Origin: Diploscapter coronatus
Lineage: Eukaryota; Nematoda; Chromadorea; Rhabditida; Rhabditidae
Assembly: GCA_964036155.1 (NCBI GenBank)
Contig: OZ038422.1
Span: 69,897,201-69,961,200 of the forward strand
DNA length: 64,000 nucleotides
Direction: 5' to 3'
Below the pieces are notes generated by a model. It was given only the letters and a program-made list of their open reading frames with translations, was not told the origin of the DNA and made no database searches. The position numbers and the translations under genes were made by a program. Of the stretch, positions 5,363-35,965 are shown in pieces. Position 1 is the stretch's first letter; every line of letters starts with the position of its first letter.

Positions 5363-5488
5363 AATCCAGAAATGTGGTATTGTAATCCAGAAATGTGGTA
5401 TTGTAATCCAGAAATGTGGTATTGTAATCCAGAAATGTGGTATTGTAATCCAGAAATGTGGTATTGTAATCCAGAAATGTGGTATTGT
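5363..5488. repeat. 21-bp tandem repeat, six copies
   Basis: Six head-to-tail, essentially identical 21-bp units beginning AATCCAGAAATGTGGTATTG, at 5363, 5384, 5405, 5426, 5447 and 5468, followed by a part copy (GTGGTATTTCAG). The array fills most of the 207-bp divergent spacer between the 206-aa gene (-) and the 126-aa gene (+), where a promoter or enhancer is expected. Confidence 0.97.
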
Positions 5489-5526
5489 GGTATTTCAGTA
5501 ATATGGAGTAAAAATATATTCTATAA

Positions 5527-6674: not shown

Positions 6675-6703
6675 TTAAATATTTAATAAACTATAAATAG
6701 AGA

Positions 6704-7093
6704 ATGACGACTCTTTTCCTAAATCTTTATCATACTAATGAAAAAACATTCCAATTCGATCAAAATTTTGTTATCAGTAGCATTGCTGTAGTAAAAATTA
6801 ATGGAATCTTGGAAAGGTATGGAAGTGAACATTCTGAAAGTTTCGTTTATCTATCATGTAATCTCGTTTGTGACTCCTATATTGATGAAAGGCAAAGTAA
6901 TATAATTTGTAAATTCAAATCTCATCAGAAAGATAAAATAAGTATAGACTTTGAGCCTATAAATTTGATTTATCACAAAACCATGAGTAACTGTAATAAC
7001 ACTTTAAATTTAACTTTAAAATTAGTTGATGACAAGAATAATCTCATTGATTTTGATAAATGTGATCTTCATTTCGAATTACACGTAAAATAA
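6704..7093 (+). CDS. Small beta-rich Polinton protein (virion-type)
   Basis: 129-aa ORF, nearly all predicted beta strand, with the pattern VYLSCNLVCDSYIDERQSN ... INLIYHKTMSNCNNTLNLTL ... DFDKCDLHFEL. Similar short proteins recur beside the ATPase and capsid genes in animal Polintons. A single-jelly-roll or other minor virion role is likely but inferred. It starts 10 nt after TATAAATAGAGA and abuts the minus-strand 71-aa ORF at its 3' end. Confidence 0.65.
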   Translation: MTTLFLNLYHTNEKTFQFDQNFVISSIAVVKINGILERYGSEHSESFVYLSCNLVCDSYIDERQSNIICKFKSHQKDKISIDFEPINLIYHKTMSNCNNTLNLTLKLVDDKNNLIDFDKCDLHFELHVK

Positions 7094-7309
7094 CTAGGAA
7101 ATCCTTTTAAAGCCTGATCCACTCTTCAATACCTTCAAAAAATCTATATTTTTCTTGGTTAATTTTTTATCTCCTCTCTTTGTGCTTTCATTGCTCTTTA
7201 ATTCTTCTATCTTCAAATTCTTTTCATTTTCAATTATGCATATTTTATCTTTCTCTTTCGGGCTTATAATAACATAACTAGAACTATGGCCAGAATCAAA
7301 GTATCTCAT
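7094..7309 (-). CDS. 71-aa basic Polinton protein with GSGF motif
   Basis: Short Lys-rich ORF between the 129-aa gene (+) and the glycoprotein gene (-, 38 bp upstream of that gene's stop). The C-terminus ends VLKSGSGFKRIS. The GSGF tetrapeptide also occurs in the N-terminal region of the integrase. In adenovirus-like systems small basic virion-core peptides carry Gly-rich protease sites; whether this is one is speculation. ATG is preceded by TTTATAAATT. Real coding status is supported by the compact gene packing and matching codon use. Confidence 0.5.
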   Translation of the reverse strand: MRYFDSGHSSSYVIISPKEKDKICIIENEKNLKIEELKSNESTKRGDKKLTKKNIDFLKVLKSGSGFKRIS

Positions 7310-7347
7310 AATTTATAAATTGGAAAAATATAAGAATAAATCTACAA

Positions 7348-9717
7348 CTAATCTACAACAAGAGATCTATGTGATGTATGATGATTGAGTTGTTGTAGTT
7401 CTAAACCGTCTTTGTTCCTTCTATAACTACTATTATTTCTTTTACGTTTCGAAATAAAAAGTTTTGGAGATAACACCATCCAAAACGATCGTATGATGAA
7501 AATGTAGAAAAGAGTAACACCGATAGTCACGTAAATCCTCCAGAACCTTAAGTAATACTTTGCGAAAAAGCTTTCAACATCATCTAAAATTTCATGTGGT
7601 ATCATAGAATTTTGCTCGTTAGCATGAAGTGTAAGTGCTACTTCAGATTTCTCTCGCATTTCATTTATAAGATCTTCTTCGATATTAGTTTTAGTATCAA
7701 ATAGGATGTGCTCATGAAAAATTATTTTATCATCTAAAAACTTGAGATTATATTCCTTAACATCTAAAACACCTATTGTTTTATTGTTCCAACTACTTGA
7801 GATTTTACTTGAAATTATATTATCTTTGAAATACCAAATTTTGTCTCCAAATCCTCTTATTTTAATAGGAACTTGGCCATGTGTTAGTGCTGAATCAAAT
7901 TCATATCCATCAAAGTCTTTCAAATCTAGGTTTTCGATATTTTCCACATCAATTTCTTTGCAGAAAGTCACTTCAACAATATTATCAGTATCAGGAATTA
8001 CATTTACTCTGATTGCTGAATGATTCAATTGTTTTTGCATATATCCTCTTGGATTTTCCTTTATCATCATCTCTAGCAGGTCATTATGATCATTGAATAT
8101 ACTACACATTATCTCTGTTGTATGACGTAGTTGATTATTCTCAATATTCTCAAGGTATTGAAACTCTCCCGCAGCTTGAAAATCTGAGTACGTGTCCCTT
8201 TTGGTCCTATTGATTACACTTCCCTTTGCCTTATAGGCAACGTTACTCTCTATACTTCTTATCAGCATACGCTGTCGATCCTGGCCGAGAGTACTTTCTG
8301 ATTGTCTTTTGTCAATTTCGTATTTAGCAATTCGGTTTATGAAATCCGTGTAACTTGTGAAGGTATTACAACTCTCTCTAATTTTCATAAACTCAGCATA
8401 AGTGGGTAGAAGATCACAATCATGCTTAATTTTTAAGTATTCATCGTAACTGGGTAATGGTAAAGGCTGCCAGGGTTGGTCGAGGTTGGTAATTTCTCTT
8501 TTTGTTCTATTGGTAGTATTATTTCTTTCTCTCTGTTGTCTTAATATTTTTTCTTGTTTCCTTTTTTCAAATTCCTGATATTTTTTCAGTTTTTCTTCTC
8601 GTCTTCTCTCGAATTCTTTCAATTCCATTTCATATTTTTCCTGTTGTGACTTCGTCCATCGGTCTCGTTGTTCCCTCTGTTCTTTTTGCAATTTTATTTG
8701 ATTGTCTTCTTCTTGCATCCTTTTATCAGTAGCTTCATTTCTCTTTTTTAGTTCTTCTTGATACTTTTTAATTTCTTCTTGTTGTTTTCTTTGTCTTTCA
8801 TAGTATTCTTGTTTTTCTTTTTCATACATCTTTGGATTTTTACTAATTTGTTCTAAATTTAATCCATTTTTCCTTTCAGTCATTTCGGAATTTAATTCAT
8901 CTTTCAAAGTACTTCTAGGTTTTTTGATAATTACTTTTTTCACTGCAAAACCTTCATCACTCAAAACAAGTGAATTACCACAATCATTTATTACACTGTC
9001 ACTTTTATTTGTAAAACTTAGAGCTATTTGATTCTCTTTATTTATCCAGAGGCCGTTATTGTAAAAACCATTGAGTTTGCCTATTGAGACATATTTGCAG
9101 TTTTGATCTCTGTTCACATCCCAGATCATGACTTCATTGTTTTTGACTTCACAAGAACCTGTGAGATAATCACATTTACTCATATCACTCATAACATTAG
9201 TTGGTCTTTTCTGGTTAAAGTGGGAGTAGACCTTCGTCTCGATAATGATACAATTTTCTTTGAGATAACGTTTAGGAGAGAACAAACTGGTGAATCTATT
9301 TGGATAATCTATAGTAATTTTATTATTTGTAAACCACTCTACATCACTATTTTTAATAAGTGTTCCGTAATCACATTTCTTATTATTTATCATTTCCTTA
9401 CACTCTGTAATGGTCAGAGGTCTATTATTTAATTCTTTCTCAATTAGGTGTTCATATCCAGAGAAATCGGTGTACATAGATACTTCTGAAACTAACTTTT
9501 TACATAAATGAGCATTTGAGATGTATTCAATTATGTTTGGTTTGAAAACTTCGTATTTCACTACTTCAGTTTTGTTTTTCAGTACGTAGTTGCATTTTGG
9601 TAATTTGGGAATTCTAAAGTACTGGGTTGGAGAACTTTCGGTACATATAATTGGTTTACTATTAGTAAATAATGCTAGAGTGCAAATCAAGATTGATTGA
9701 AATAATCTTACTCTCAT
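7348..9717 (-). CDS. Envelope-like transmembrane glycoprotein carried by the Polinton
   Basis: 789-aa ORF. Residues 1-20 are a signal peptide (RLFQSILICTLALF). About 25-270 is a Cys-containing, Asn-glycosylation-rich ectodomain with a CDYLTGSCEVKNNEVMIWD segment. About 280-400 is a Lys/Glu/Gln/Arg coiled coil. An RTKR dibasic (furin-type) site lies near 405 and a second RTKR near 507. Next comes a beta-rich domain, a transmembrane helix near 722-745 (IYVTIGVTLFYIFIIRSFW), and a basic cytoplasmic tail of ~45 residues. The layout is that of a viral surface or fusion glycoprotein, and I cannot assign it to a fusogen class. It lies between virion genes and starts in TATTAAATGAG like its neighbours, so it belongs to the element. 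Capture from another virus is inference. No truncation is seen. Confidence 0.75.
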   Translation of the reverse strand: MRVRLFQSILICTLALFTNSKPIICTESSPTQYFRIPKLPKCNYVLKNKTEVVKYEVFKPNIIEYISNAHLCKKLVSEVSMYTDFSGYEHLIEKELNNRPLTITECKEMINNKKCDYGTLIKNSDVEWFTNNKITIDYPNRFTSLFSPKRYLKENCIIIETKVYSHFNQKRPTNVMSDMSKCDYLTGSCEVKNNEVMIWDVNRDQNCKYVSIGKLNGFYNNGLWINKENQIALSFTNKSDSVINDCGNSLVLSDEGFAVKKVIIKKPRSTLKDELNSEMTERKNGLNLEQISKNPKMYEKEKQEYYERQRKQQEEIKKYQEELKKRNEATDKRMQEEDNQIKLQKEQREQRDRWTKSQQEKYEMELKEFERRREEKLKKYQEFEKRKQEKILRQQRERNNTTNRTKREITNLDQPWQPLPLPSYDEYLKIKHDCDLLPTYAEFMKIRESCNTFTSYTDFINRIAKYEIDKRQSESTLGQDRQRMLIRSIESNVAYKAKGSVINRTKRDTYSDFQAAGEFQYLENIENNQLRHTTEIMCSIFNDHNDLLEMMIKENPRGYMQKQLNHSAIRVNVIPDTDNIVEVTFCKEIDVENIENLDLKDFDGYEFDSALTHGQVPIKIRGFGDKIWYFKDNIISSKISSSWNNKTIGVLDVKEYNLKFLDDKIIFHEHILFDTKTNIEEDLINEMREKSEVALTLHANEQNSMIPHEILDDVESFFAKYYLRFWRIYVTIGVTLFYIFIIRSFWMVLSPKLFISKRKRNNSSYRRNKDGLELQQLNHHTSHRSLVVD

Positions 9718-9765
9718 TTAATATATTAAATTTCTGAATATATAAAATAAATTACTTTTTCACTT

Positions 9766-11019
9766 TTGATAATGGAAACAATTGATAGAATTTTGGCTGT
9801 CGGAGAAGGTATTATAAATGATACATCTATTCAAAAAGAAAATCTTATCAATATTTTCCCGTCTAGTGGATCAAATCTGAATCAACATGGTGAAATTAAC
9901 TTCATCATAGAGACTTGTGACCAATACCTACTTCTTCATAAATCTTACATTTACTTGGATGTAACATTGTGTAAGTTAGATGGTTCTGCACTTGCAGAAG
10001 GTGATGAAGTTTCTCTAACAAACAATGCACCAATGTATCTATTTGACAGGGCTACGTATTGTATGGATGGTATGCAAGTAGAATCAATAATTGATCCAGG
10101 AAGAGCAAGTTTGATGAAAGGACTTCTCACTTATAGTAGTACTATGAATAAACAAAACACTTTCGGGTGGATTTTAGAAACAAAAGACATTATGACATAT
10201 AAAATTAATAAATACACCAAAAATAGAAAAGGAAATATTACTTTTTGCATTCCGGTAAGTCACATCTTCGGTTTTGTAGAATGTTACAACAAAATTATTT
10301 ACGGTAGAAAACATCAATTATCACTCTACAGATCACCTGAAAATAAGAATAGTATTGTATCCACAGATCCTACGAAGTATACAGCAAAAATGATAATTAA
10401 TAAACTGCAATGGATTATCCCAAAGATTATGCCTAGTCTTGAGATGCAAAATAAACTATTGAACATTTTTGAAAGTAATAAACTTCTCCAGATGCCATTC
10501 ATTTCGAGACAATTTGAAAGTTATAACATTCCTAATGGAAATAGGGAGTTTACTTGGAAGTTAGGAACGAAGTATGATAAAATTAAGTACATTGTAATAT
10601 CTTTTCAGTGTGGAAGAGATAATAATTATCTAAATGCTAGTAAATTTGATAATTGTGGATTAGAAGAAATCTACGTTGAATTAAACTCTGAGAGATATCC
10701 ATATGAATGTCTTAAATTTGATTTTGACAAATTCAATGCAGTTCAGCAGTATAATTTTGCTAAAGAATTCCGAAATAGTTATTACGAATCAGTAAAAGAT
10801 TATATTTTCATTGAAGAAGATGTTTACTATTATTACTATCCGATCTTGGCATTTGATGTTTCTAAACAAAATGATCGAATAATTCAATCTAGACCGGATG
10901 TTACAATAAAAGCCTCATTTTCTAAAAATATTGCGCAGAGTACGAAGTGCTATTGTCTTATTTTGAGTGATAATATTGTTGAAGTTCAAAATAATAGGGT
11001 CAAAGTGGTAAGCATCTAA
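9766..11019 (+). CDS. Polinton major capsid protein (double jelly roll)
   Basis: 417-aa protein matching animal Polinton/adintovirus major capsid (hexon-like) proteins. The N-terminal jelly roll shows GEINFIIETCDQYLLLHKSY and then NNAPMYLFDRATYCMDGMQVESI. The conserved middle has IPVSHIFGFVECYNKIIYGR, and the second jelly roll shows QFESYNIPNGNREFTWKLG. Length is slightly under the usual 450-600 aa, with no internal break seen. It is divergent from the glycoprotein gene with a 48-bp AT-rich spacer. The ORF starts at 9,766 with a second Met two codons later at 9,772, and either could be the start. Its 3' end faces the integrase 31 bp away. Confidence 0.88.
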   Translation: MIMETIDRILAVGEGIINDTSIQKENLINIFPSSGSNLNQHGEINFIIETCDQYLLLHKSYIYLDVTLCKLDGSALAEGDEVSLTNNAPMYLFDRATYCMDGMQVESIIDPGRASLMKGLLTYSSTMNKQNTFGWILETKDIMTYKINKYTKNRKGNITFCIPVSHIFGFVECYNKIIYGRKHQLSLYRSPENKNSIVSTDPTKYTAKMIINKLQWIIPKIMPSLEMQNKLLNIFESNKLLQMPFISRQFESYNIPNGNREFTWKLGTKYDKIKYIVISFQCGRDNNYLNASKFDNCGLEEIYVELNSERYPYECLKFDFDKFNAVQQYNFAKEFRNSYYESVKDYIFIEEDVYYYYYPILAFDVSKQNDRIIQSRPDVTIKASFSKNIAQSTKCYCLILSDNIVEVQNNRVKVVSI

Positions 11020-11050
11020 AACTCTGATTTTTTTCAAAATCGGTGAGCGT

Positions 11051-12313
11051 TTAGTGTTGTAGATTGATTTCAGGAATCCAAGAATTAAATTTCTCTGGAT
11101 ATCCATACCACTTTACAAATATTTCACTTATTCCTTTCTTTTTTCTGCGTTTTATGATCTTTTCGATTTTATATTCTTCTTTAACATTGTTAAATAACGT
11201 TAATTCTTCTTCATAAAACTTACCTTTTATTTCTTCCCCTCCTAAGTCTACAATTTCATATGTAAGTGGAGAAGTATCAAAAACTTTTGCAATTTTGAAT
11301 TGTTCAGTACTCCAATTAGGTAAATAACCCTTATCAAAAATAGCTTTATATTTTGTTATTCTGACTGTATCACCAATCTTGAATTTAGAATTAGCTATTT
11401 CAATTTTTTGTTTATCTTCGAATTCACAACCCTTTTCTGAAGGAAAAAGATTTTTATGAACGATAGGTGTATTTTCTATCTTTGAAGCTTCGATTGGAGT
11501 CATTTTAATGGAGCGGTGATAATGATTATTGTAACCCATGACAAGATCAGGAAGAATTTCTATCCATCTATGGTTTCCATTGTAAGTAAAAATTTTCCAC
11601 ATTTTTTCTTTGAGAGTTCTATTAAACCTTTCAATTATTGAAGCCTTTTTATCTGAATAAGTTGAAAAATGATTAACTTCTAAACTTTTAAAGAGATTAT
11701 TCATTTCTTTATTGTAATACTCTTTACCATTATCACTTTGTATTTTCTTTGGTTTTCTTTCTTTAAAAATGGATTGTAAAGCAACAGAAGTTTCTTTCCC
11801 AGTCTTATTCTTTAGTGGAATAACCCATGCATACTTACTGAAACAGTCAATGACTGTGAGAAGATATTTAAAACCATCATTTTCTTCTGAATATGGGATC
11901 ATTTCTACAAGATCAGATTGCCACTGTTCATCAATCTTGTGAATGTAAACTCTTTCAGTTTTGAAATTCTTACGAGCTGGTTTGTGAAGAGTGTAAACAT
12001 CTTGCTCATTAAGGAATTCTTTGGCAACTTTCGAAGACTTATTAGTTTTCCTTGCAAGTTCATTTATGCCACAAAATCCTGTTTTGGGATTATAATAAGT
12101 TTTTTCAAGGATTATTTTATCTTTCTCAGTAATTTCCTTACCTGAGTCTTCAAATCCCGAACCGTTTGTCTGTTTTGGAATCAGTTTACATTTTGGTGTG
12201 TTACAAACATCACATATTCCTTTAATCATTTTTTTGTTATTTTTAGTAAACATTTCTAAAATATCAATAGTATTTGTTTGTGTTTTACATTTGAAACAAA
12301 ATATTAAATCCAT
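11051..12313 (-). CDS. Polinton retroviral-type integrase (zinc ribbon, rve, chromodomain)
   Basis: 420-aa DDE integrase that inserts the element. Residues 6-42 are a four-Cys zinc ribbon (CFKC ... CDVCNTPKC), followed by the linker TNGSGFED. The catalytic core has Asp in WQSDLVEMIPYS (~133), Asp in IQSDNGKEYYN (~195) and Glu in SIIERFNRTLKEK (~230), with the usual TVIDCFSKYAWVIPL strand. The C-terminal chromodomain reads YKIEKIIKRR...EIFVKWYGYPEKFNSW. All catalytic residues are present and the frame is intact. The start lies in GAATAAATGG and overlaps the upstream 76-aa ORF by 10 bp. Confidence 0.93.
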   Translation of the reverse strand: MDLIFCFKCKTQTNTIDILEMFTKNNKKMIKGICDVCNTPKCKLIPKQTNGSGFEDSGKEITEKDKIILEKTYYNPKTGFCGINELARKTNKSSKVAKEFLNEQDVYTLHKPARKNFKTERVYIHKIDEQWQSDLVEMIPYSEENDGFKYLLTVIDCFSKYAWVIPLKNKTGKETSVALQSIFKERKPKKIQSDNGKEYYNKEMNNLFKSLEVNHFSTYSDKKASIIERFNRTLKEKMWKIFTYNGNHRWIEILPDLVMGYNNHYHRSIKMTPIEASKIENTPIVHKNLFPSEKGCEFEDKQKIEIANSKFKIGDTVRITKYKAIFDKGYLPNWSTEQFKIAKVFDTSPLTYEIVDLGGEEIKGKFYEEELTLFNNVKEEYKIEKIIKRRKKKGISEIFVKWYGYPEKFNSWIPEINLQH

Positions 12314-12534
12314 TTATTCACACTGTAAACTTCCAATGTATTCAAAAGTTCAATTGTGAAAAAGCGAGAAAATTCTAGAGCCTTCCAATTCGATGTGTAA
12401 TGGTCACAAAGAGAGCAGACATTACTTAATAAGCGACGCTTTGCATACTCGGGTGAATGATGACACATCGAAAGACAAACATATGCAAAATAAGCACTGT
12501 AAACCTTCTCGATTATAATATCAATCACATTCAA
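12304..12534 (-). CDS. 76-aa ORF upstream of integrase
   Basis: Short ORF whose 3' end overlaps the integrase start by 10 bp. It has several Cys and His residues (YVCLSMCHHS, NVCSLCDHY) that could bind zinc, but no recognisable family. It is the last Polinton-like ORF before a sharp change in composition near 12,540. It could be real and translated with the integrase, or a chance ORF. No TAAATG context is seen at its start. Confidence 0.35.
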   Translation of the reverse strand: MNVIDIIIEKVYSAYFAYVCLSMCHHSPEYAKRRLLSNVCSLCDHYTSNWKALEFSRFFTIELLNTLEVYSVNKWI

Positions 12535-12613
12535 CGAGACGCGTTCACTGCTTTAATTTATCAGAGCGGATTCATCGTCGCTATTGCATTTCTGTTCTAT
12601 TTTGTCTATAATT

Positions 12614-13158
12614 ATGGCCTCGCCCGATTTTGAAGGCTTGAATACATTGCTTGAAAATGAATCTAATGAGTATGATCGCTTGATGGAGGAAAATTAAAAC
12701 TTGAAAGAGAGAATTCAACAGCTAGAATCAGGACTACATTCTTCTCTTAGTTCACCAATGAATGGATTAAATCTTCAATCACCATTCAGAAATAAAAGGT
12801 AAATTCATTAGAATTAATTAGAATTAGTTATATTTAGTTAGAATTAATTAGAAATAGTTAGAATTAGTTAGAATTAATTGTAACATGTTTCAGAGGATTT
12901 ATTGTTAGAACGGAGAAGAGGAAGCCGGTTATTATATATAACGACTATATTTTCTATTTCCGACGCAAATCTAATTCTTCCAATATTTATTCCTGGAGCT
13001 GTAAATTTTATTCAGTATCCAAATGTCGATGTAAAATAGACTTCGACCAATAACGTTGGAAGGGATATGGAAATTATTGAAGAAATCGGTGAGCACAACG
13101 ATCATCCGAATGCGCTCAAAGAAGTTGCTCGTTTATTAAAAAATTTTAAACACCGTTA
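12614..13158 (+). pseudogene. Decayed FLYWCH zinc-finger gene
   Basis: A start at 12,614 opens a frame (MASPDFEGLNTLL...) that meets TAA at 12,695 and continues in the same frame as a coiled-coil-like stretch to a donor-like AAAAGGTAAATT at 12,795-12,806. After a repeat-filled intron and a TGTTTCAG acceptor, 12,894-13,045 encodes a FLYWCH-like pattern: RGFIVRTEKRK, YNDYIFYF, then SWSCKFYSVSKC. The closing His pair (GEHNDHPNALKEV) is in a different frame, up to a stop at 13,156-13,158. The stop and frame change mark it as non-functional. The FLYWCH call rests on residue spacing (F, Y, W-x-C, C, H-x2-H). Confidence 0.5.
12799..12883. repeat. Degenerate ~10-bp repeat (TTAGAATTAG type)
   Basis: About seven imperfect head-to-tail copies of a ~10-bp unit such as TAGAATTAGT / TAGAATTAAT. 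They fill the putative intron of the FLYWCH pseudogene just before its TTTCAG acceptor. Confidence 0.8.
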
Positions 13159-13271
13159 GAAGTTACTAACAATCATATTGTATATAGAAGTATTTTAGTT
13201 GTTTTCTAAATCTTCCATAGTTCTTTTGAAGCCACATAATTTCACTGAACGTCCCCCATGTTACTAGCTGA

Positions 13272-13312
13272 TAAGGTGAAAGATCGGGGTTCGAATCCCT
13301 GCGACTCCAGTT
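13272..13312 (+). other. tRNA-like 3' half (B box), no intact tRNA
   Basis: GGGGTTCGAATCCC with a plausible T-stem and the ending GCGACTCCA look like the T arm and acceptor 3' strand of a tRNA. No matching 5' acceptor strand or D arm is visible within 75 nt upstream, so this is at most a tRNA pseudogene fragment or the tail of a tRNA-derived repeat. Confidence 0.4.
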
Positions 13313-13334
13313 TGAAAGAGGCTTTTGCTAGAAG

Positions 13335-13753
13335 ACGTTTTGCTCTCTTTTTTTAATATTAGCTAAGCTATTTTGTTTGGTAAAGTCAATTGAATATGCA
13401 TTCTTTATGATGTCAATAATAACTTTATTGTCTTCTAATTTCGCTTTGAAAAATCCTTTATCTTCTTTCAACAATCCATTAATTGACATGATTTAATTCA
13501 TCAAATGTATATTTACCATTTGGAATAGTTACAATATTCTCTTCTTTAATTGGGTTGTTGTTTATATCAACTACATTAGCTAGGTAATAGAACTTGTTAT
13601 TTGTATGATTTATATGTATTTTTTTTTGTTAATTTCTAGAATACCATCTAGCTTCACCAATCCAATTTCATAGTTCTTATCCAAAAACTCCTGTGGAAAT
13701 GAGTATTCAAAAGTTGATTCGTTGAACAATAGTTTCAATATGAAGTAGATCAT
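13335..13753 (-). pseudogene. Decayed Polinton minor-capsid/penton-like gene fragment
   Basis: The minus strand from ATG at 13,753 gives FEYSFPQEFLDKNYEIGLVK, and in a shifted frame NNKFYYLANVVD with a downstream VTIPNGKYTFDEL segment. This is the order seen in the Polinton minor-capsid-like family: a Y-x-IGL strand, then N-N-K-F-Y, then IP-x-G-x-Y. At least two frame changes and stops break it, and only the N-terminal ~120 residues remain. The start lies in TTATAAATGATC, the context shared by genes in the main element. It could be a displaced part of the same Polinton or the relic of another copy. Confidence 0.5.
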
Positions 13754-13765
13754 TTATAAATATAA

Positions 13766-14513
13766 AAATTTCTTTTGCTGCTAAACTATGAAATTTGATG
13801 ATGTTACGAAAAATTTTAATTTTATGGATCACCCCACAACGCTCTTATCAGTAAATTTATAAAGCTCAAGTGGCTTTAATCAAGAAGATAAGTCGAACAG
13901 TAGGCGCCAGGACAATGGCAAATAAGTCTTCTTAAGCAATTGAGAATTTTCAAGTCATCATTTTTTCCTGATATAAATAGCGTTTATCAGTTCCTTCTCC
14001 TTCAATCTTGATTCCAGCCCCACTTCTGCATTATTCGACTTTTTTTAAATTGCTACTGTTTCGCGCATTTGAAATGGAATAAGTTTTTTTTTATTGTATA
14101 TTAATAAAAGAAATTAATTCATATAAGAATGTTCTATACTTTTTACTTAATATTTATTTTAGTAACCTCCTAGACTATTTCGCCTATCTGATCACTTTCA
14201 GTCGATGAATCATTCAATTTCTTAGGTAAAATCGATGTAAGACAGTTGCTTCTTCATTCTTCTTCAATTTTTCGAAAGTATGCGAAATTCAATTCGAATT
14301 TCAGATTCACTGCAATGTTTATGATTCATTTCTAACCATTTCGTCTATGTTTTATCCTCAAATCGATTTTTCAACCTAAAAATTTGAATTTCAGAACCAT
14401 ATCTCAACTTAAATAATGTTCGATTAAATCTAACATTACTCAAAGTCTAAATCTTTGGATTCTAATGTATACATACTAATTTTCCAAAAATTAGTAAATA
14501 GACAAAACTAAAG
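13766..14513. other. AT-rich intergenic stretch
   Basis: No ORF or repeat that I can support. A TATAAATAG sequence lies at 13,972-13,980, but the following Inr-like ATCAGTT is too close for a standard TATA promoter. The stretch ends where composition jumps to C-rich at about 14,514. Confidence 0.6.
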
Positions 14514-14625
14514 TGGTGTCCCCGCCAACTCCAACGCTTCCAACAACGTTGCTGTTCGAACGTCCCCACTAGGAAGCGCACACACGCCACAAACCCCAGC
14601 TCACTCTCCGCATACATTTTAAAAA

Positions 14626-15243
14626 ATGTCGCAGACTGCTCCCGTTTCTACCGCCTCCACCACCACCGCCACCCGCTCTGTCTATCGCCGAAATATCGTC
14701 CGTGCTCCGGCTTCATCCCGTGCTTTTAGCAGGGGGAGGAGCAAGTCGTGCGGACGACCTCAGGAAAGGCCAGATCTGGTTTCGGCGATCTATGTCGCCA
14801 AACCGGATTTGGTCTTCGAGTCTCCGGCAACGGGGACAAAGGTCTCCATTAAGTTGGAGGCCTTGAAGGCATCAGGGCTGGTGACGAAAGTCACCGAGGA
14901 GCTCCTGAAAGGGAGCTTAGTAGAATTGGAGAAAGGAGGTCAAAAAATAACTTGCCTCCCGAAAGAACTGCCTCCCCCTCTCCTCGGGGAAGCGGTCAGG
15001 TGCGTCATGACGCACCTACACGCCGCAGTAGCGGCGTCCATGAACGGATGTCTGGCCCTCCAGACTTCCGATTATGGGAAAGGGGAGTACGGTGAAAACC
15101 GTATCGAAAAAATGGCGGACCTGGAGGAACAACTCAGGAATCTCAATCTGCGCTACGGCGTGGAGGAGAAGAAAACGTCATTTAAACCTATGAAAAAAGA
15201 GGCCTTCAAGAACACGTTTGGAGTGCCTATCTCGAAAGAGTAG
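14626..15243 (+). CDS. GC-rich orphan ORF, possible integrated viral or retroposed sequence
   Basis: 205-aa ORF of unknown family. Residues 1-50 are Ser/Thr/Ala then Arg-rich and disordered (SVYRRNIVRAPASSRAFSRG). About 50-150 is a mixed alpha/beta region, and 165-190 is a helix (LEEQLRNLNLRYGVEEKK). Its base composition (clearly GC-richer) contrasts with AT-rich DNA on both sides. The different-composition block spans about 14,514-15,357: a C-rich leader, the ORF, and a 3' stretch with two hairpins (GACCAC...GTGGTC, then TCCGC-TT-GCGGA) ending ATTAAAAAAAAT. That shape suggests a reverse-transcribed RNA, perhaps from an RNA virus. I found no motif that names a family. Confidence 0.45.
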   Translation: MSQTAPVSTASTTTATRSVYRRNIVRAPASSRAFSRGRSKSCGRPQERPDLVSAIYVAKPDLVFESPATGTKVSIKLEALKASGLVTKVTEELLKGSLVELEKGGQKITCLPKELPPPLLGEAVRCVMTHLHAAVAASMNGCLALQTSDYGKGEYGENRIEKMADLEEQLRNLNLRYGVEEKKTSFKPMKKEAFKNTFGVPISKE

Positions 15244-15403
15244 GTATTCTAGACTTTGAGAAGTCTTCTTAATAATAGGATCGGTACGATATATGTCCAT
15301 AACACACTGGACCACCTTTTTTAGTGGTCTGATCCGCTTGCGGAAATGATGACCATTAAAAAAAATATTTTTATTTACCCTTCATAAAATAAATATTCTA
15401 TAT

Positions 15404-15683
15404 AAAATATTTTTATTGTATAAATATTTTTATTGTATAAATATTTTTATTGTATAAATATTTTTATTGTATAAATATTTTTATTGTATAAATATTTTTA
15501 TTGTATAAATATTTTTATTGTATAAATATTTTTATTGTATAAATATTTTTATTGTATAAATATTTTTATTGTATAAATATTTTTATTGTATAAATATTTT
15601 TATTGTATAAATATTTTTATTGTATAAATATTTTATTGTATAAATATTTTATTGTATAAATATTTTTTATTGTATAAATATTT
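15404..15683. repeat. 17-bp tandem repeat (TAAATATTTTTATTGTA), about 16 copies
   Basis: Head-to-tail 17-bp units from about 15,404; the last few are 16-18 bp owing to T-run length changes. The array ends at the TTAA that borders the foldback element. Confidence 0.97.
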
Positions 15684-17655
15684 TTAAGAGAGTGTATTTG
15701 TAAGACTCGAACAGTTTTATGCATTTCAGAAAAAGTCGGACAAATCGTGATTTAATCATAGAGGTGGATACCCCTATGGGTCCTAATCACAAAATTGAGA
15801 AGATTAGGTTCCGCTCTCAAAAGTGGGCGGAGTTATGCTAATTTGAAAATTGCGATTTTGGCGCTAAAATTCTCGTTAGATGGTACAAAGAAAACTTTTT
15901 TGCTATAAAAGATTTCTGAAAAATTCCAAAAGGATGTTAGACTAGGCAATGGGCCACGTCTACTGATATATAGATTTAGGGATATCAACCACTTGCTAGT
16001 ACGGTAGGTTATCCTGATGTCAAAATAGGGGTAAAAATACCCCTCAAATTTGCAGAAAATGGCTCCCCCTGAACAAAAAATATATTACAACATTGAAATA
16101 AACGCTGTAGAATGATAGAGGAGTTCAAGCTGCACTAATATCAGCAATAAAAAGTGGGAAAACATGCGACCCTTTTTGAGAAAAAAGCGCCCAAAGAGGG
16201 TGCGGTCAGGGGGTCGAATTTTGAAATTTCATACAAACCTCCACAAATCATATACCATTCAACGCACAATGAAAAACTGAGCAACTTTTGTGAAGACACC
16301 TCATGGTTATCTATTATGGTATGCATGGTATGGAGATTTGAATGAGTCAGACCCACGAAAATGACAAAAATTTTCAAAAATTCATAACTTTGCAAAAATC
16401 AAACGAATTCGAAAAATCTTTTCGGCATATAGCAGATTAAGGGCGATACTTCATTTTTGCTTCCTAAAGTATCGTTCTACCATTTTATCATGTTATCATA
16501 TGGGTCCATGGTATACCACCCATATGGTACCCGAGTGGTATGCTATAAAAATGGGTATCAATCGACTCGAAATTGACTGGAGAGTAATATTCGAGTTCAT
16601 TTCTATCAATCTCAGCAAGTGGTTTCATTATACCATCATTGTAATTGGGTATAACCATCTGTCGAAAAAAGATCAAAAATGGAGTAACTTCAAATGACCA
16701 TAGAAGGCTATAGATTAATCCCTTTTTCAAGCGGTTTTCAACATATTACTCAGCTCGATAAGGGCTTTCATCTGATATATAACATGATGGGCCTTTGTTA
16801 AAAATGGTAACTTGACCCATATGGGTCGCTACCATTTGGTACAATACCATGTTTGGTATCGTTCGACTCCAAATTGGATGGGGATAGATAATAGATGTCT
16901 CTAGCTTCAATTTGAGCTCAAGTTTTGGTAGACTACCTATGGAAATATTCTCGTATCATTTTCTTGAAAATTGACATTAAATTTTGGTTTTTGAGGTACT
17001 ACTCCCATACCATAATAGATAACCATGAGGTGTCTTCACAAAAGTTGTTCAGTTTGATGAGTTCTATCAATTGGTATACAATTTGAAATATGTACCTCAC
17101 ATTTTCATTTTTCGACTTCCTAACTGCACCCTCTTTGGGCGCTTTTTTCTCAAAAAGAGTCGCATGTTTTCCCACTTTTTATTGCTGATATTAGTGCAGC
17201 TTGAACTCCTCTATCATTCTACAGCGTTTATTTCAATGTTGTAATATATTTTTTGTTCAGGGGGAGCCATTTTCTGCAAATTTGAGGGGTATTTTTACCC
17301 CTATTTTGACATCAGGATAACCTACCGTACTAGCAAGTGGCTGACACCCCTAAACTTATATATTAAAAAATGAGCAATTATATGGGCTATATGATCCTTT
17401 TTAAATTTTTCGAAAATCTTTTATAGCAAAAAAGTTTTCTTTGTACCATCTGATGGCCACTTTAGCGTCAAAATCGCAATTTTCAAATTAGCATAACTCC
17501 ACCCACTTTTGAGAGTGGGACCTAATCTTCTCGATTTTGTGATTAGGACCTATAGGGATATCTACCTCTATGATCGAATCACGATTTTTCAGACTTTTTC
17601 TGAAATGCGGATTTTTCTTAAGGACTGTTCGGGTCTTACAAATACACTCTCTTAA
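15684..17655. mobile_element. Foldback DNA transposon (non-autonomous) flanked by TTAA
   Basis: The element body 15,688-17,651 begins GAGAGTGTATTTGTAAGAC and ends with its reverse complement GTCTTACAAATACACTCTC. TTAA stands on both sides (15,684-15,687 and 17,652-17,655), the target duplication of piggyBac-type and some other TTAA-specific transposons. The arms are very long: left-arm sequence to about 16,330 is matched inverted from about 17,000 on. The centre holds two diverged direct copies of a ~60-bp block (near 16,545 and 16,845). No transposase ORF is present; ORFs inside fall in repeat arms and are not coding. Termini do not match the usual piggyBac CCC start, so superfamily is inferred from TTAA only. 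Confidence 0.88.
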
Positions 17656-17839
17656 TCTTCGATATCATACAACATAAGTACATCTATTATTTGTTTTAAA
17701 TAATATTCTATATGATCATTAATTTTATATCTCTTATTTACAAAAATATATAATCCTATACCTAAGATATATTCTACTGACATATTATGTATTTAAATTA
17801 TTTTTAAATATGTATAATTATTCTACTGACATATTATAT

Positions 17840-18484
17840 TTAAATTATTTTTAATACTATAATTCCTATAATAATTGCTATTATACCAAATATGATTAAT
17901 GTCCACATAGATATATCTGAAGATTCTTTTATTTTCATATTTGTTTCTGCATCTGCAGCTAGATCAGATAATACAGATATACCACAATTGAATTTATTAT
18001 CATCTGTAAAATTAAGTGTTATATCTCCCTCATAATTATTATAGATTAAAGTTATATTAATTACTTGTTGTGAGGAATCAAATATCTGACATACTTCTCT
18101 AGTATCATCTTCCATTCTAGAATTTAATTCAACATTTAAGTTTTTAGTATTCTGTCTAAATCCAATAATTAATCCATCAGCAGTATCAGTATCTAAACTA
18201 CTAGCTAAGTGATTAGCTAGATCTTGTTTAGTGTTAACTTCTACATATGCATTACTTGCTGTATATTGATTAATAGTAGTATTCCCAGATCCATGATTTC
18301 TTAATACAGTTACAAATGTAGCATCTTGTTTAATTAATTCTATTTTATTTTTAATATCTATTTTATTAATTTTACTAGGTAAAGTGTCTCTCATGAATAC
18401 TCCTCTAAAATTTGTTATATTTAATTCATTTACTATTTTTATAATTTCATAATTTGTCAGTGGTTTAAAATTTTTAATAAACAT
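17840..18484 (-). CDS. Polinton-protease-like N-terminus fused to a membrane protein
   Basis: 214-aa ORF. Residues ~8-40 match the N-terminal signature of Polinton/adenain-like cysteine proteases (LTNYEIIKIVNEL, then NFRGVFMRDTLPSK), but the catalytic His-Trp and Cys motifs that should follow are absent. From ~55 it is a different sequence: a helical/beta region with two Cys (about 133 and 168) and a C-terminal transmembrane helix (WTLIIFGIIAIIIGIIVLKII). The tail-anchored layout recalls small virion membrane proteins, but I cannot name one. The start lies in TTATAAATG as in the Polinton genes. It may be a recombined relic or a separate element's gene. Confidence 0.5.
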   Translation of the reverse strand: MFIKNFKPLTNYEIIKIVNELNITNFRGVFMRDTLPSKINKIDIKNKIELIKQDATFVTVLRNHGSGNTTINQYTASNAYVEVNTKQDLANHLASSLDTDTADGLIIGFRQNTKNLNVELNSRMEDDTREVCQIFDSSQQVINITLIYNNYEGDITLNFTDDNKFNCGISVLSDLAADAETNMKIKESSDISMWTLIIFGIIAIIIGIIVLKII

Positions 18485-18989
18485 TTATAAAATAAAAAAA
18501 AAACGTAGAAAATCGACGATGTTGAATACGCGAAAAATGTGGGGCGAAACTGCGTCAGAAAATGGCTCTTCTTTTTAATTCTGTGTTTTTGCCCCTCGAA
18601 TTCCTAGCGCACTTTTTTGCCCACTTTTCCCTAAGGGGCAAAATTGAAGATTTTCAAAAATGATGTGTTTTTTACTAATTAAGACATGTTATTACTTCGA
18701 TAATGCATGAAAATTGTTGAAAATGCATACAAATTGGAGTGGGCAAAAAAGTGCGCCAGCCCGTACCGAATATATACTACTTATCACTATCTAATCTGAA
18801 GAAATTGGAATGATGAATGTCGATGGAAATAATATAAAAAAAAATACCAGATCAGAACCGGTATTACCAAGTTTCTTCCGCTCGATATCGGTCTGATCCA
18901 GGGAAAAGGTGAACCGGAAAAAATTTGGAAATTTTCAGTGCAAGCTCGGACAAATCGGCTAACAAACAAACGAACAGAAGCAGGCAAAC
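18485..18989. other. Spacer with inverted-repeat element, upstream of orphan gene
   Basis: It holds one 150-bp inverted-repeat element (18,607-18,756) and the presumed promoter and leader of the 12-exon gene. I see no clear TATA box near the expected start. Confidence 0.5.
18607..18756. mobile_element. 150-bp MITE-like inverted repeat
   Basis: Perfect 19-bp terminal inverted repeats, GCGCACTTTTTTGCCCACT and its complement, enclose an AT-rich centre with no ORF. No clear target duplication is seen. Confidence 0.75.
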
Positions 18990-29703: not shown

Positions 29704-30029
29704 TAGATCTCAGTTAGATCATAGTTCTGATGGTCCATCACTGGTCACAGACTACTCACTACATACGAGTGACTACTTAACCCCGTCGAAAGTCTCTCGT
29801 CTTGTAACTGACGCGTATAATTTCGACTTCAATTCTGATTTGTAATTTCCAGAATCCTTCTGCTCCTACTTCAAATTGTCAAACGCTACATCGTAAAATA
29901 TTGAGGAATACTCAATTTTCTAGGGTTCCGCTATGACCTCATTCGAATTTTAGAAGTATTTCGAGAGTTGAATCATCAAGAAGCTTTATTTGATAAAAAA
30001 TTCATATCTCCAAAAATAATTAATTTTAA

Positions 30030-33000
30030 TTACTCCAAATTTGTGGGTACAGGACAAATATCATTCAAACTATCAGAGTCGGAGTCTTCATGAGCTTCGA
30101 GGTAGCCGTAATAATTCGTTATCATCAGGAGACATTTGGAAATCTCCGATTTTAGCTGAAAAATCAACTCTTTCAGTGAGTGAATAATACTCGCCTCATC
30201 AAATGATAATCGATCCTCAGGATTCATATTCCAGCATTTTTCCATCAGTTCATACCTAAAAATCAAATGTTATTCAGGAAAAGATCATGCCTCACATTTC
30301 ATCAGGACACAATTCTGGTTTCGGAAGTCGCTTTCCTTCTTTTAAATAAGTAATCAAATCTGACGATGCAATGTCTTGGTAGGGTCGTTGTCCTAGAGAG
30401 TAAAATTCATAGAGGGTCACACCAAATGACCAGCTAAATGATTATCTTATAAAAAAAAATCGTCCAATCTTTGATAATTACACATCGCTCTTCGATGAAA
30501 ACTCGGAATTAGAAAATGCTTTGGGAGCCGTCCACTTCAGAGGCAGCAATCCTCTCACCACTTTATCCGATTCATCGCTTTTGATGGCTAATCCAAAGTC
30601 AGCTATCTGCAACAAGATCACAAACTGATTACCAACTCTCGAAACTATTATACATACCTTTGCCTTGCAGCTTTTGGTCAAAAGAACATTTCTTGCTGCT
30701 AGATCGCGGTGCACAATATCTTTAGAGGCCACATAACTCTGAATTGATCAAGAATGATGAATGAGTGAGAACTGAGAATCTATTACCATTCCGTCGCAAA
30801 CTTGCCAAGCAAATGACGTGATTTCTCGAATACCGATAGCTCCACTCTGGACTCTAAATACTTGCAACCTGAGATATTAAAGTCATTTACCTTGAAATTT
30901 TCTTCATTATCGGTAAGGTATTTCAGAATGTCGCCTAGTTTACAGTACTCGAGTATCATCAAGGGAACGAATTTACTGGGTACATAGCCGTACATGCTGA
31001 ATGTCAAAACCATGATTTATGAAGACTTTGAAATTCAACTCTTACCTAACAATATGCAGATTATATTCGAGTCGTTTCATAATTTCAATTTCTCGACAAA
31101 AGTCATCATGATCTCGATCAGTTGCATGTCCTTGAAGACGTTTCACTGCCACCTGAAATAAATTCATAAAGCTGGCTTTACCATTTCAAAGGCTACTTCG
31201 ACTACGTCCTTTTTTGAATTCGAATGCAAATGAACTTCGATATTACGGCTAATCTCAAATAGGGGAATCCGACCTATTAATTTTCATTTCTTTATTCGGA
31301 ATGATAGATGGAAATTATTCGAACCAGACACAAATCCAACATAAACCTCGGAAAATGCTCCCTTTCCTAGTAGTCGATCCTCTTGAGTCTCCACTTTTGA
31401 TGGTTCGATCATCCAAGCGTCCCTATAATTCATTTTCTAATTAGATATTCGAGCATTCGTACAGACCTTTTTAACTTCGAACAATTAATGTATTCGTTAC
31501 GATGCTTAGAGCTGCTAAAATTAAAGAAAGCACATTTTGTTTAACAAATTGATTACCTTAAATGCTTTGAAACGAATATGTTGATGCGTTTCCGTCTATA
31601 GTAAATCGTACAAACGACGAATATGATAGATAAGACAAATACCATTGAAATAGAGACAATTAGGGCTACTGGTATTTATTACTTATCATGAAATATTGCC
31701 AAATGATCTCACCCATTTTTCCGTAATCGGTAGATGAAGTAGGAGTTGGCTGTAAATTCTTAGTATGAAAGTATCACAAAATCACTAAAGAAACGTATTT
31801 ATGGGGTAATCGAATATGTCTATCATAAATCTGAAGCTCTTTCCTGGTGTAATGACATTCTGAGCGACATACAAACGCTCAAAAATGAAGATTTTCTATA
31901 CACAAGATGGGCCATAATTGTAGTTAGAGGGCGCAAGTGCCGTCCACTCAGTAAAGACAAAATCAAAGTGATTTTTCGTCATTTAAAAAAAAAAAAATTA
32001 CGAAATTATGTTCTTTTTTCACTATTACATAAGCCTAAAGAAAATTTTTGCGCTCAAATTGCAAAGTAGGCCGGCTTATCATATTACCACGAAAAGGGAT
32101 TATCAAAAATTTAGAATGTTCCAGAAACAAGCAGAGAAATTCAAACAAACGTCCTTACAAAGCCGTTCTCCCTTTGAAATAGCCTTTGCTCTGTTGTGTG
32201 TAAAGACAGAGAACGCTTTTCTCCTTGCGAAAATCGCCAAGCAAAGAGATTTTCGAATACCATCTTCAAAAATTCATATCTTTGGTTAACACTGATCCGT
32301 TTTTCATGCGGTTTTTGCTATAATCCTGTCTAACCCTACAGATTCCTAGAAAAATACTCCCATGACTCGGTCTTCACATCGGGAATATTACTTGCGCCCT
32401 TTAATTTTACCTGGGCATCTTGATCTTCGGGCAAACGACCTAAAATCATTATAAATTAAGTTGATCATCGGGTCATCTGGAAGCTTCGTAAAATCGTATT
32501 ATGGACTGTGAGGAAGTAGATATTGTACACTTTGCATCTCTTTCTCCTTAGACTCAACCCCCTCGAAATAGCATGCGCCCTGAAGAGACGGAAGAGATAG
32601 CAAAGAGAAGGAGAAGGACACAGTGAGGGAAAGAAGAGGCGTAGCTCGTACAAAAAAGAGTGCAATATCCACTTCCTCACAGTCCATAATAACACAAGTT
32701 TAGCTAAATCCAACTAAATTATAAATAAAGATAGTAAATGTTATCGAAGTTCTAACAGCCAATCGAAGGCTGGCACTATAACGACGAACGAGCTCGCTCG
32801 CTCGCTCGCTCGTTATTCTACTTTATTTAATATGAATATTATCATTGATGGCTTGGTGAAATCACTCCAACATACCGAACGTGCTCCATCGGTTCAAGGA
32901 TGGATCGTATTCTTGAATGGACCACACATTTTTGCTTCGTCCCGCAGTTTCCCATCCACCGATAACATACATTTTGTCATTAGCGTCCGCCATCCAGGTA

Positions 33001-35965
33001 TATTGACTCTTTATGGGCATATCAGCGATCTTTTTAGAAAATACAGCTCTTCCGTTTTTAGTCCAGAACGCTTTACATGTTCTAAATAACCAACAACGTT
33101 TTTCGGCTTCCTCTAATTGGCGTTGTTTGATCACCGTCATCAATTGTGCTTATTACAGGATTTAGGAATTAGGAAAAAGGGAAAAATTGTCGATAAAATT
33201 CGGTGACCAAGCACATTCGACGACAATGATCAGGCGGTGACAGATACAGGTAGTCTTTTCCTTATTTCTGCCAAATAAAAATCCTTAAGATCGTTATCAC
33301 TTACTTCAAAACTTTTCCTTCAGTATTAGTACCTCCGCAGATGAACACCTTGTTCCTAACACAGACGTAGCCAGCATAGGTCCTGTTGCCGTCCATTCTG
33401 CCAATTTCTTCCCATTTACTTTCAGGCTTTCTATCATATTCGAATATTTTAAGATCGCACTCAATGGTAACATCGACAGCTGCAATTTTAAATATCTAAA
33501 AATATCACCATATATTGCCAATGACTGACAACTTGAGAAAAAATAAACGATGCGCAAATTCGAATCTGCAAAGTGTGCATTACGTAATATCAAATGATCG
33601 TCAAAGTCATTCCTAGATTCGATAAAATATTGTTTATTAGTTTACAAACAACATGCCAATTTCTATACATCAAATTTTCGTTCCTTTTATTTTGTCTCAA
33701 GTTATCGGTCATTGGCAATAATAACTGATGAATTATACAAATGGCTGAAAGCATATTATTCTAAATAATAAAATTTACCGAATATTCTATTCTGGCATTC
33801 AATAAAGTTAGCAAAACCCATTTTACAGTTCTCTGGGAAACTCGGACCAGATTTCCATTCGCCTGTACCATTTACCTAAATTTCTTAATCGATTTGAATG
33901 AATTGAACATGTGTTCTAAACGTGCCTGATAACTTGTGGTATTCGAATTAATATACCACAATTCATCTCCAAATCCCACTAATGTGTCCCTTGCGGACAT
34001 GACATTTTGAGGCAAATGATCTGAAATATAAAAATTTAGTAAAGGCTAAAAGTTGTGAATTTAATTTAATAATAACCAAGTGTTTTCTCCTTCTTCGTAA
34101 TTGCATCATACAATTGTATTTTAGCGACTTTTTGCCGATCGCTCGTTTTATACATCGCATAAAACTGAAATTATTTCGTAAAGAATATTGTATCAACTAT
34201 TTTAACACATGATCAGATTCTTACCTTGTTTTTTCTATTACTGACCACTTGATAATATCTCGAGTCGTCAAAAGAGCCAGCATCAGTAACTTCGTGATTT
34301 AAACCAACCATATCTAATGCACGCACATGACCTTCCTCATAATCTGAAAATAGATAATATTCTGCTTAAAAAGTTCGCAAATCAATAATCAGTAAGAATT
34401 TATGATATTATTCTTCACGCTGACCATAAAAATACGTTGTGCGTGTTGTAATAATCTGAAAATAGTTGTTAATTGTCATTAAAATGCTCATTTTGATACA
34501 AACCTTATCAACCTTGCTATGATCGGAAATGTACTTATGAGTCCGGTACCAAGAATCAACTACTTCTTGGGAATAGTTGCCAAATAGTTCCTTAAATTTG
34601 CTTATAATGACTGCTTGAACCGTCCCTTTCGCAGAGGCTTCGATTATCTGGTCTCGAATTTTATCATCCAATTCTTTCACCTGAAAACTTATTCATTTTC
34701 TTTGGGCATTATAATTGCATGGACTAATTCATAAAAGGTCTTTTGTATTCCACACCAGAGTTGGTCAAAGACTAAAATTTTAAAAACTCTAAGTCAAAGA
34801 CAACGGTAAGGCTTTGTCCAGTCCTATTCCAGAGGGAAGAAGGGGAAAAGAAAAAAAGTGTGGGTGTGGAATACGAGATCGTCATAAAATACAAAAAGTA
34901 AATTTCAAATAAAACTCGATTTTTATATTCGCGTAAAAGTTACCACACGCGATGCATTCTTTTCGATCGATTTTTCGACAAACTCATCGTTGTCCTCTAT
35001 AAATACCATATAACGATCCTTTTGTCCTTCCTAAATTCTCATGTTCAAGTACAGAATTGTAAAATTCGTAAACAAGTCATAGTCGATTCGTCATTTCAAA
35101 AATGCAATGAAAATATCATCAATCTGGAAGTTTGAATTCTAGTTATCATGCGAAACGAAAATTTAGGAATAATAGGGTAGAATACGGTATCGTTTCTTCA
35201 CAATATTTCGAACAGTCGTTAAATTTTCGGATCAAAAATCGTGAAAACTTCAAGTTGCTCATTATTATTGCGAGTTTTAAATTTAAATAGCCCAATACCC
35301 AAAGCTCATCGTCGGTAAGAATTATTTCTTCCCCCGAAGCCTCGGTCGACTCTTTTAATAATTGTAGCACTAATGGTTGAATTTTCTTGAGTCTATCTTC
35401 AGGTGTATCAGTATGTTTTCGTATCGTCTCCCAAATCTAAAATATAATATTTACATTTGAAGTATTTTATTATTATTTCATATATTTGAAAGAAAATTAT
35501 CCTGCATTTTTTTTTACAATAATCACACTTAAAACAGTACCACTTTTAAATCGAATATCTTTTGGAATTATTCTGCACTATCTCAATTTTCAATAGCACT
35601 TTTACCTTCTTTTCTATCTGAAATTGATCGCCAGAAAGCTTTACTTGATCTGACATTTTCAATAACAACTCTAAAATGGCATTCGAAATTATAAATTAAA
35701 TCGAAAAAGAAACTAACCATTAATAATATCATCGATGGATGAAACTTCTATCTCCTGTGGTTTAGTGACATTCGAATTGTCATAACGAGGAGTTGTGGAG
35801 AATGCCTTTGTGCCTTCAGTGTTATTAGGCAAGGCCGTTGATTGTGGCTCTTCCTCTGGTCTACACAAAATAACAATAAAAAGTCTTACGAAAAACTTAC
35901 TGGGTAAATGCTAGATTTAGTACTGTGAAAAGTAAGAATAATGAAGATCTCCAATGAAATACCAT
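30030..35965 (-). CDS. Kelch-ectodomain receptor tyrosine kinase, copy 1
   Basis: Multi-exon gene. The first exon (35,901-35,965) encodes a signal peptide (WRSSLFLLFTVLNLAFT). Next come an acidic/Asn-glycosylated stretch, a helical segment, and kelch blades in exons between about 34,350 and 32,860 (GEWKSGPSFP; NKVFICGG; DKMYVIGGW...EYDPSLNRW). A 29-nt exon (32,411-32,439) carries the frame to the stalk exon PTPTSSTDYGKM (31,713-31,749), the TM/RRKR exon (31,557-31,665) and a juxtamembrane exon. The kinase shows GKGAFSEVYVG, VAVK, HRDLAARN, ADFG and LPLKWTAPKAF, ending at a stop at 30,030. Phases agree from signal peptide to P-loop, except for one GC donor near 33,931. One kinase junction near 30,870-30,905 does not stay in frame, and the APE motif reads APK, so this copy may be impaired. 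Alternative: two adjacent genes, but the kinase has no other start. Confidence 0.72.
31928..32400. mobile_element. MITE family B inside receptor-kinase intron, copy 1
   Basis: 473 bp between AGGGCGCAAGT and its inverse ACTTGCGCCCT, lying in the intron between the 29-nt exon and the stalk exon. It is matched along its length by the inverted copy at 63,196-63,666. The 93-aa frame inside (32,008-32,289) is probably not coding: differences from the other copy are nearly all amino-acid changing, and a one-base difference moves its stop. Confidence 0.8.
32497..32691. mobile_element. MITE family A, copy 2
   Basis: 195 bp with near-perfect ~28-bp terminal inverted repeats: start TATTATGGACTGTGAGGAAG, end CTTCCTCACAGTCCATAATA. 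TA stands at both ends. It lies within an intron of the kelch receptor kinase, beside a CGCT/CTCG microsatellite (32,789-32,814). Confidence 0.88.

Follow-up and report, generated by a model that had tools for sequence, protein, structure and literature searches.

The window, a stretch of 64,000 nucleotides of Diploscapter coronatus DNA, carries on its minus strand an open frame of 909 residues over 26 exons, which runs from a start ATG at 35,965 to a stop at 30,030, as in the initial annotation. Twenty-four of the 25 introns are GT-AG and one is GC-AG (intron 10, donor at 33,925); this GC donor is kept in L033, the allele of the gene on the other large contig. The exons were traced by hand, and our own spliced protein-to-DNA aligner, when given the model, returned the same exons, which is a self-consistency check only. 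The features of the gene are as follows.

35,965-35,901, minus strand: exon 1, with the start ATG and the predicted signal peptide MVFHWRSSLFLLFTVLNLAFTQ; its final codon is completed in exon 2
35,860-35,718, 35,670-35,606 and 35,436-35,299, minus strand: exons 2-4, N-terminal ectodomain region
35,030-34,944 and 34,680-34,504, minus strand: exons 5-6, N-terminal ectodomain region
34,455-34,425, 34,343-34,225 and 34,164-34,077, minus strand: exons 7-9, kelch domain
34,020-33,926 and 33,875-33,779, minus strand: exons 10-11, kelch domain; exon 10 with the GC donor
33,479-33,305 and 33,081-32,876, minus strand: exons 12-13, kelch domain
32,439-32,411, minus strand: exon 14 (29 nt), GRLPEDQDAQ, phase 1 in and 0 out; read as the last kelch strand
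32,404-31,924, minus strand: dispersed inverted-repeat element, MITE-like, 481 bp, with ends near TTAGAGGGCGCAAGTGA; most of intron 14
31,749-31,713, minus strand: exon 15 (37 nt), Thr/Ser/Pro stalk PTPTSSTDYGKM, phase 0 in and 1 out
31,668-31,557, minus strand: exon 16, transmembrane helix (residues 517-539) followed by YYRRKR as stop-transfer
31,514-31,467, minus strand: exon 17, juxtamembrane region
31,422-31,325, 31,273-31,197 and 31,152-31,046, minus strand: exons 18-20, kinase domain and C-tail part
30,996-30,891, 30,846-30,787 and 30,738-30,658, minus strand: exons 21-23, kinase domain and C-tail part
30,606-30,482, 30,433-30,296 and 30,255-30,030, minus strand: exons 24-26, kinase domain and C-tail part
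29,985-29,990, minus strand: AATAAA 3'-end signal, about 40 nt beyond the stop

The initial annotation had placed a signal peptide, kelch blades, a stalk, a transmembrane helix and a kinase in order on one strand. The order of kelch domain, stalk, helix and kinase stands, with some amendments. The N-terminal hydrophobic run was called a signal peptide by eye and is not flagged by the hydropathy scan (19-residue mean over 1.4), the stalk of the window copy has only about 12 residues, and an additional N-terminal part of about 200 residues (exons 2-6) precedes the kelch domain. This part contains four of the seven ectodomain sequons, and the Pfam scan returned no family over the cut-off for it; an SXP/RAL-2 domain was considered as its identity and rejected for want of Pfam support.

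Kelch repeats were detected in the ectodomain piece by Kelch_1 (29.4 bits), Kelch_6 (26.9 bits) and Kelch_3 (25.5 bits), each over the curated Pfam cut-off, and the ectodomain taken alone matches Kelch_1 at 5.7e-7. The kelch domain comprises about 280 residues, in which six blades were counted by eye. A profile built from five kelch domains like that of the window gene (type A) matches designed kelch propellers, KLHL3 and KLHL12 in the Protein Data Bank, these matches covering mainly the C-terminal 110-130 of the 280 kelch positions. Of the propeller proposed at the outset, the repeats are over the Pfam cut-off, and the predicted fold rests on the profile matches. Pfam, run over all 909 residues of the model, showed no CUB, EGF, PSI or lectin domains and no BTB or BACK domains. 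The window protein differs in this respect from attractin-type membrane proteins, which carry CUB, EGF, PSI or lectin domains beside kelch, and from the KLHL proteins, which are cytosolic and have a BTB-BACK-kelch organisation.

A single segment, with its core at residues 517-539 and followed by YYRRKR, is flagged by the hydropathy scan and lies between ectodomain and kinase. The kinase domain (residues 586-855) matches PF07714 of Pfam with an E-value of 7.3e-77 and contains the motifs VAVK, HRDLAARN and DFG; the APE motif reads APK in the window copy and APE in L033. Among solved structures its best matches include EGFR and FGFR kinases, together with a Src/Abl ancestor and a JAK-like chain. 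In its succession of an ectodomain (behind a predicted signal peptide), one transmembrane helix and a kinase with HRDLAARN and DFG, the protein resembles the FGFR, EGFR and MET receptors, from which it differs by its kelch ectodomain and by an activation loop that has no tyrosine. The last exon encodes NYYGYLE in the C-tail (exon 30,255-30,030); by eye, a YGYL[ED] motif is common to the window protein and its Diploscapter pachys relative P0002, and is a candidate docking site.

The passage from kelch domain to stalk is made by exon 14. Its phases (1 in, 0 out), and the exit of the stalk exon in phase 1 into the transmembrane exon, had been proposed in the initial annotation and are borne out. 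In the model without exon 14, exon 13 reads into 'GMLE*', so that the kelch part needs exon 14. Together with its flanks this exon was found three times in the genome, namely in the window, in L033 and at C1:32,664,539 in locus L042, and all three copies keep the 29 nt and the AG/GT borders. The copy in the allele shows a single, synonymous base change; that in L042 is a remnant, which stands away from the other exons of type A.

Intron 14 measures 661 nt. Because 481 of these belong to the dispersed element, the intron would once have had about 180 nt, which falls inside the range of the other introns of the gene (40-436 nt). For the first 145 nt of the element, at least 40 matches were counted across the genome, and in related kinase loci, too, the element precedes the stalk exon. 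Similarity to L037, L038, L040, L041 and L042 starts at 32,397-32,404, the left end of the element, and similarity to L039 starts further inside it; with the mismatch limit applied, only the window gene, L033, L038 and L042 showed both ends of the element. A second repeat is present in intron 13, around 32,700-32,500.

A hidden signal peptide for a separate kinase was sought between 32,410 and 31,750 by reading three frames by eye and by aligning eight loci. No ATG-led hydrophobic segment was seen there, in agreement with the earlier statement that the kinase has no signal peptide of its own, and the candidate is rejected also because most of this interval is the dispersed element. A '...KAEL*' tail after exon 14, common to several copies, was considered as an ER-retention-like end and rejected, as it lies inside the element.

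D. coronatus is described as a parthenogenetic nematode with a diploid genome of 170 Mb and 2n = 2 (PMC5483258). The sequence searched here consists of two large contigs, C1 (87.7 Mb) and C2 (82.0 Mb), and a small one of about 13 kb; the window is C1:69,897,201-69,961,200. Over 7.1 kb the allele L033 on C2 is 88.6% identical in DNA, and its 908 aligned codons contain no stop. The join is older than the divergence of the two chromosomes at this locus. A gap of about nine nt in L033 removes the exon-6 donor, and the aligner extends exon 6 in frame. The stalk exon differs between the alleles by 36 nt in total with the frame kept, which gives L033 a stalk of 24 residues if the same acceptor is used; our aligner chose a later acceptor. 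Point estimates of dN/dS between window copy and allele (Nei-Gojobori, own script, codons opposite gaps dropped) are 0.44 for the N-terminal part, 0.22 for kelch, 0.14 for stalk, transmembrane and juxtamembrane regions and 0.17 for the kinase.

Eight loci in the genome (the window gene, L033 and L037 to L042) reach 84% identity or more to the kinase query in their best stretch. All of them except L039 have same-strand kelch exons upstream, which makes seven. In five of them (L037, L038, L040, L041, L042) the closely similar kinase stands behind a second, divergent kelch (type B), the last exon of which ends in phase 0 and is followed by a phase-0 stalk exon according to the splice model of these five loci. 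In L039 there is a stop in the kinase, and no kelch was found in about 7 kb upstream. L043 is a partial copy of two pieces only. With the join kept on the homologous chromosome and its layout repeated at related loci, the linkage of kelch and kinase claimed initially is real at the sequence level.

One of the type-B loci, L038, begins within the window and runs past its end, where its kinase lies, to C1:69,962,791, on the strand opposite to the first gene. Its parts inside the window (coordinates converted) are these.

62,055-63,124, plus strand: type-B kelch exons of this second kelch-kinase locus, the last ending in phase 0
63,192-63,670, plus strand: another copy of the inverted-repeat element of intron 14, within the intron that precedes the stalk exon
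63,846-64,000, plus strand: stalk exon (63,846-63,918) and start of the transmembrane exon

By position, L037 and L038 are alleles of each other; the modelled part of both is free of stops (their N-termini are outside the model), and two allelic pairs look intact. The dN/dS between L037 and L038 is 0.63 for kelch, 1.05 for stalk, transmembrane and juxtamembrane regions and 0.18 for the kinase, the first two values indicating that constraint on these heads is weak, with none on the part from stalk to juxtamembrane region. In L040, L041 and L042 alike, the acceptor ahead of the VAVK exon has changed from AG to AT, and these three copies are probably dead, or may be pseudokinase versions; the stops found in the kelch part of the L040 and L042 models may be misread introns. 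The stalk-exon indels among the eight loci (33, 3 and 51 nt) are each divisible by three. Five paralogs carry an in-frame ATG 3 nt into the stalk exon. It is lost in the window copy, L033 and L037, where the kinases keep a low dN/dS, and in L033 there is no ATG anywhere in the stalk exon.

A pairing scan was run over 169 kinase and 211 kelch places among the matches listed, one or few per locus, so that the genome-wide counts are lower bounds. It gave at least seven kinase loci with a same-strand kelch within 12 kb upstream (the L035 kinase and the L040 kelch being outside the input), at C1:32.66, 38.92, 69.93 and 69.96 Mb, at C2:65.29 and 65.33 Mb and at C2:57,468,615. At the last of these, on the minus strand, the kinase is a different one, and a type-B kelch in the same orientation lies 6.1 kb upstream of it (C2:57,474,761). 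Among loci with kinases roughly 60% identical to that of the window gene, L029 shows a Ser/Thr-rich stalk and a transmembrane helix by eye, with no kelch in the 1.5 kb examined, whereas the kelch end seen at L031 is on the opposite strand.

Kelch heads of both types also occur apart from this kinase. Profile comparison aligned types A and B over 253 columns with 25% identity (probability 98.8). L034 on C1 and L036 on C2 have the window's kelch type without exon 4 and without a kinase, and their last exon, 'SKLPKSTMEI', is predicted to carry the stop. Owing to the lack of exon 4, dN/dS for the N-terminal part of these two copies is unreliable. In L035 (C1:69,752,500-69,762,000) the same kelch type stands in phase before a transmembrane exon and a MET/AXL-like kinase, whose closest chains in the Protein Data Bank, after a doubled EGFR chain, are RON, MET and MER; a relative of this kinase is found at C1:14.46 Mb. 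L035 is a possible second kelch-kinase chimera, found on C1 only among the matches listed.

The type-B heads match Kelch_1 at 1.6e-17 (L038) and 3.2e-18 (L041), and PF24981 below the cut-off. At least 278 matches to type-B kelch were counted in the genome, as units of about 1.1 kb that are dispersed and often in tandem (e.g. L040, L044-L053); some adjoin HSP70-like or Ser/Thr kinase exons, as judged by eye. In type-B kelch, a stop right after the putative donor (EKVN*) was seen, including in L045, a unit with no window-type kinase behind it within the 3 kb examined. The kinases beside the units L044-L046 were considered as further kelch receptor kinases and rejected, as they lie upstream of the kelch; the L045 kinase, moreover, reads by eye as Ser/Thr type.

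On these grounds the frame in the window likely represents one gene, which would encode a single-pass receptor tyrosine kinase with a kelch ectodomain, the latter likely a six-bladed propeller, and which has sister kelch-kinase loci in the same genome. The best reading of the set is a lineage-specific family of receptor tyrosine kinases with an exchangeable kelch head; we infer a joined transcript, surface display, ligand binding and signalling. Against a joined gene it may be held that exon 14 codes for ten residues only, that the signal peptide was not flagged, that APK replaces APE and that the activation loop lacks a tyrosine. The kelch-only loci L034 and L036, the state of L039-L043 (three of the seven kelch-bearing loci probably being dead), the weak constraint on the L037 and L038 heads and the limited span of the direct matches to solved propellers also count against it. 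The strongest points against the join are the EKVN* stop of the type-B kelch in L045 and the stalk ATG of the five paralogs.

Two adjacent genes are the best-surviving rival to this reading. The first would be a secreted kelch protein with its end in exon 14 or behind it, the second a kinase beginning at the stalk or transmembrane exon, perhaps by spliced-leader trans-splicing within an operon; operons and trans-splicing are common among rhabditid nematodes. This rival is a genuine one because kelch and kinase also occur apart, and the kelch-only loci L034 and L036 do end in a stop exon. If exon 14 of the window copy is left unspliced, it reads 24 residues further to a stop, but this read-through tail lies almost wholly in the dispersed element and differs between the alleles. 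Likewise, the stalk ATG of the five paralogs could start a kinase without kelch, yet neither the window copy nor its allele has an ATG where the stalk exon begins, and the frame is still kept. In the gap between 32,345 and 31,740 neither AATAAA nor ATTAAA is present, and of eight hexamers tried only CATAAA was found, once, while an AATAAA does stand at the 3' end behind the kinase. We consider two genes unlikely.

It is also conceivable, and to us improbable, that one locus gives two products, the joined receptor together with either a shorter kinase starting at the stalk or a secreted kelch decoy ending at exon 13 or 14, an explanation that overlaps the preferred one. Such alternative ends are found in relatives, as the stop exon of L034 and L036, the other kinase of L035 and the stalk ATG of the five paralogs; this ATG, however, is absent from the window copy and its allele. 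A decaying chimera, in which recombination would have set a kelch gene before a kinase gene with join and product of no importance, would suit the many broken or partial copies (L039-L043), the APK of the window copy and the repeat elements in introns 13 and 14, but is very improbable in view of a frame kept on both chromosomes over 908 aligned codons, of dN/dS between 0.14 and 0.44 in every part and of a join older than the divergence of the chromosomes.

Returning to the joined receptor, the head appears exchangeable because closely similar kinase halves follow two kelch types of about 25% identity, and because one of these types is also predicted to be secreted and is found before a MET/AXL-like kinase. 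The breakpoints between heads and kinases are in introns and the phases fit each time; exchange of heads through such intron breakpoints would be the simplest account. The arrangement could, more tentatively, represent a head-swapping recognition system, with type-A kelch secreted (L034, L036), placed on the window kinase or placed before the L035 kinase, and the window's kinase combined with type B as well (L037, L038). That these would be diversifying, immune-like receptors with soluble decoys is a proposal we regard as rather doubtful.

In the joined receptor, the predicted signal peptide would bring the kelch head to the outside of the cell, where it may bind a ligand, perhaps a protein or a glycan, by analogy with known kelch propellers. 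Clustering through the short stalk and the single helix would then activate the kinase in trans, and the signal would pass through tyrosines of the C-tail, such as those in NYYGYLE, and not through the activation loop.

Protein searches, which need shared five-residue words and list the best matches, and the literature on kelch and receptor kinases or on Diploscapter yielded no animal kelch-transmembrane-kinase receptor, and none of the 23 matches of an alignment search was a protein of this kind. The nearest nematode kinase among the matches listed is P0002 of D. pachys (37% identical, no kelch in Pfam). The view that the receptor is lineage-specific fits these matches, the nearest nematode proteins listed being this kelch-less kinase and HSP70-kelch proteins, with the addition that the gene is one of eight closely similar kinase loci. 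The D. pachys HSP70-kelch proteins P0144-P0148 are kin of the type-B kelch (41-59% identity) and, unlike the window protein, have an HSP70 domain and no tyrosine kinase; the deposited gene models may merge neighbours. P0147 was considered as a kelch tyrosine kinase and rejected, since Pkinase is the best match of its kinase, which reads as one of Ser/Thr type.

The initial annotation had further held that no known animal receptor family is built in this way. The matches listed agree with this, but two proteins, P0037 and P0039, read kelch repeats, a transmembrane helix (by eye) and a tyrosine-kinase-like domain in the order of the window protein, so that the combination is rare, but neither unique nor confined to nematodes. 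Their kinases are about 33% identical to that of the window, P0037 has an fn3 match below the cut-off, and the likeness is likely convergent.

The Eph-like kinases of choanoflagellates and filastereans, which are not nematode, are likened to the window protein through a Kelch motif named in the legend of Fig. 3, where the protein is unspecified (PMC6993872). The KIN-16 family, as described in PMC10523662, includes OLD-1 and the pseudokinase FLOR-1, C. elegans-specific receptor kinases in oomycete recognition; it is species-restricted like the present family, and kelch is not mentioned in the parts of that account consulted. A survey of holozoan tyrosine kinases stresses the shuffling of ectodomains, the word 'kelch' being absent from its main text as consulted (PMC8662651).

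Animal receptor tyrosine kinases draw on a limited set of ectodomains, to which a kelch head, if true, would add a new one. It would also show heads being exchanged within one genome, where soluble forms, receptors and broken copies coexist. Because C. elegans-specific receptor kinases act in pathogen recognition according to PMC10523662, the family is a candidate in which rapid evolution of receptors in the absence of sex could be tested.

Elsewhere in the window, a Maverick/Polinton-like element was observed at about 2,290-18,490. Some large frames in it gave no Pfam match over the cut-off; the frames that were assigned are the following.

5,898-6,674: Pox_A32-like packaging ATPase of the Maverick/Polinton-like element
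9,751-11,019: double-jelly-roll capsid-like frame (PF21738, 3e-44)
11,051-12,313: integrase with chromodomain of the Maverick/Polinton-like element
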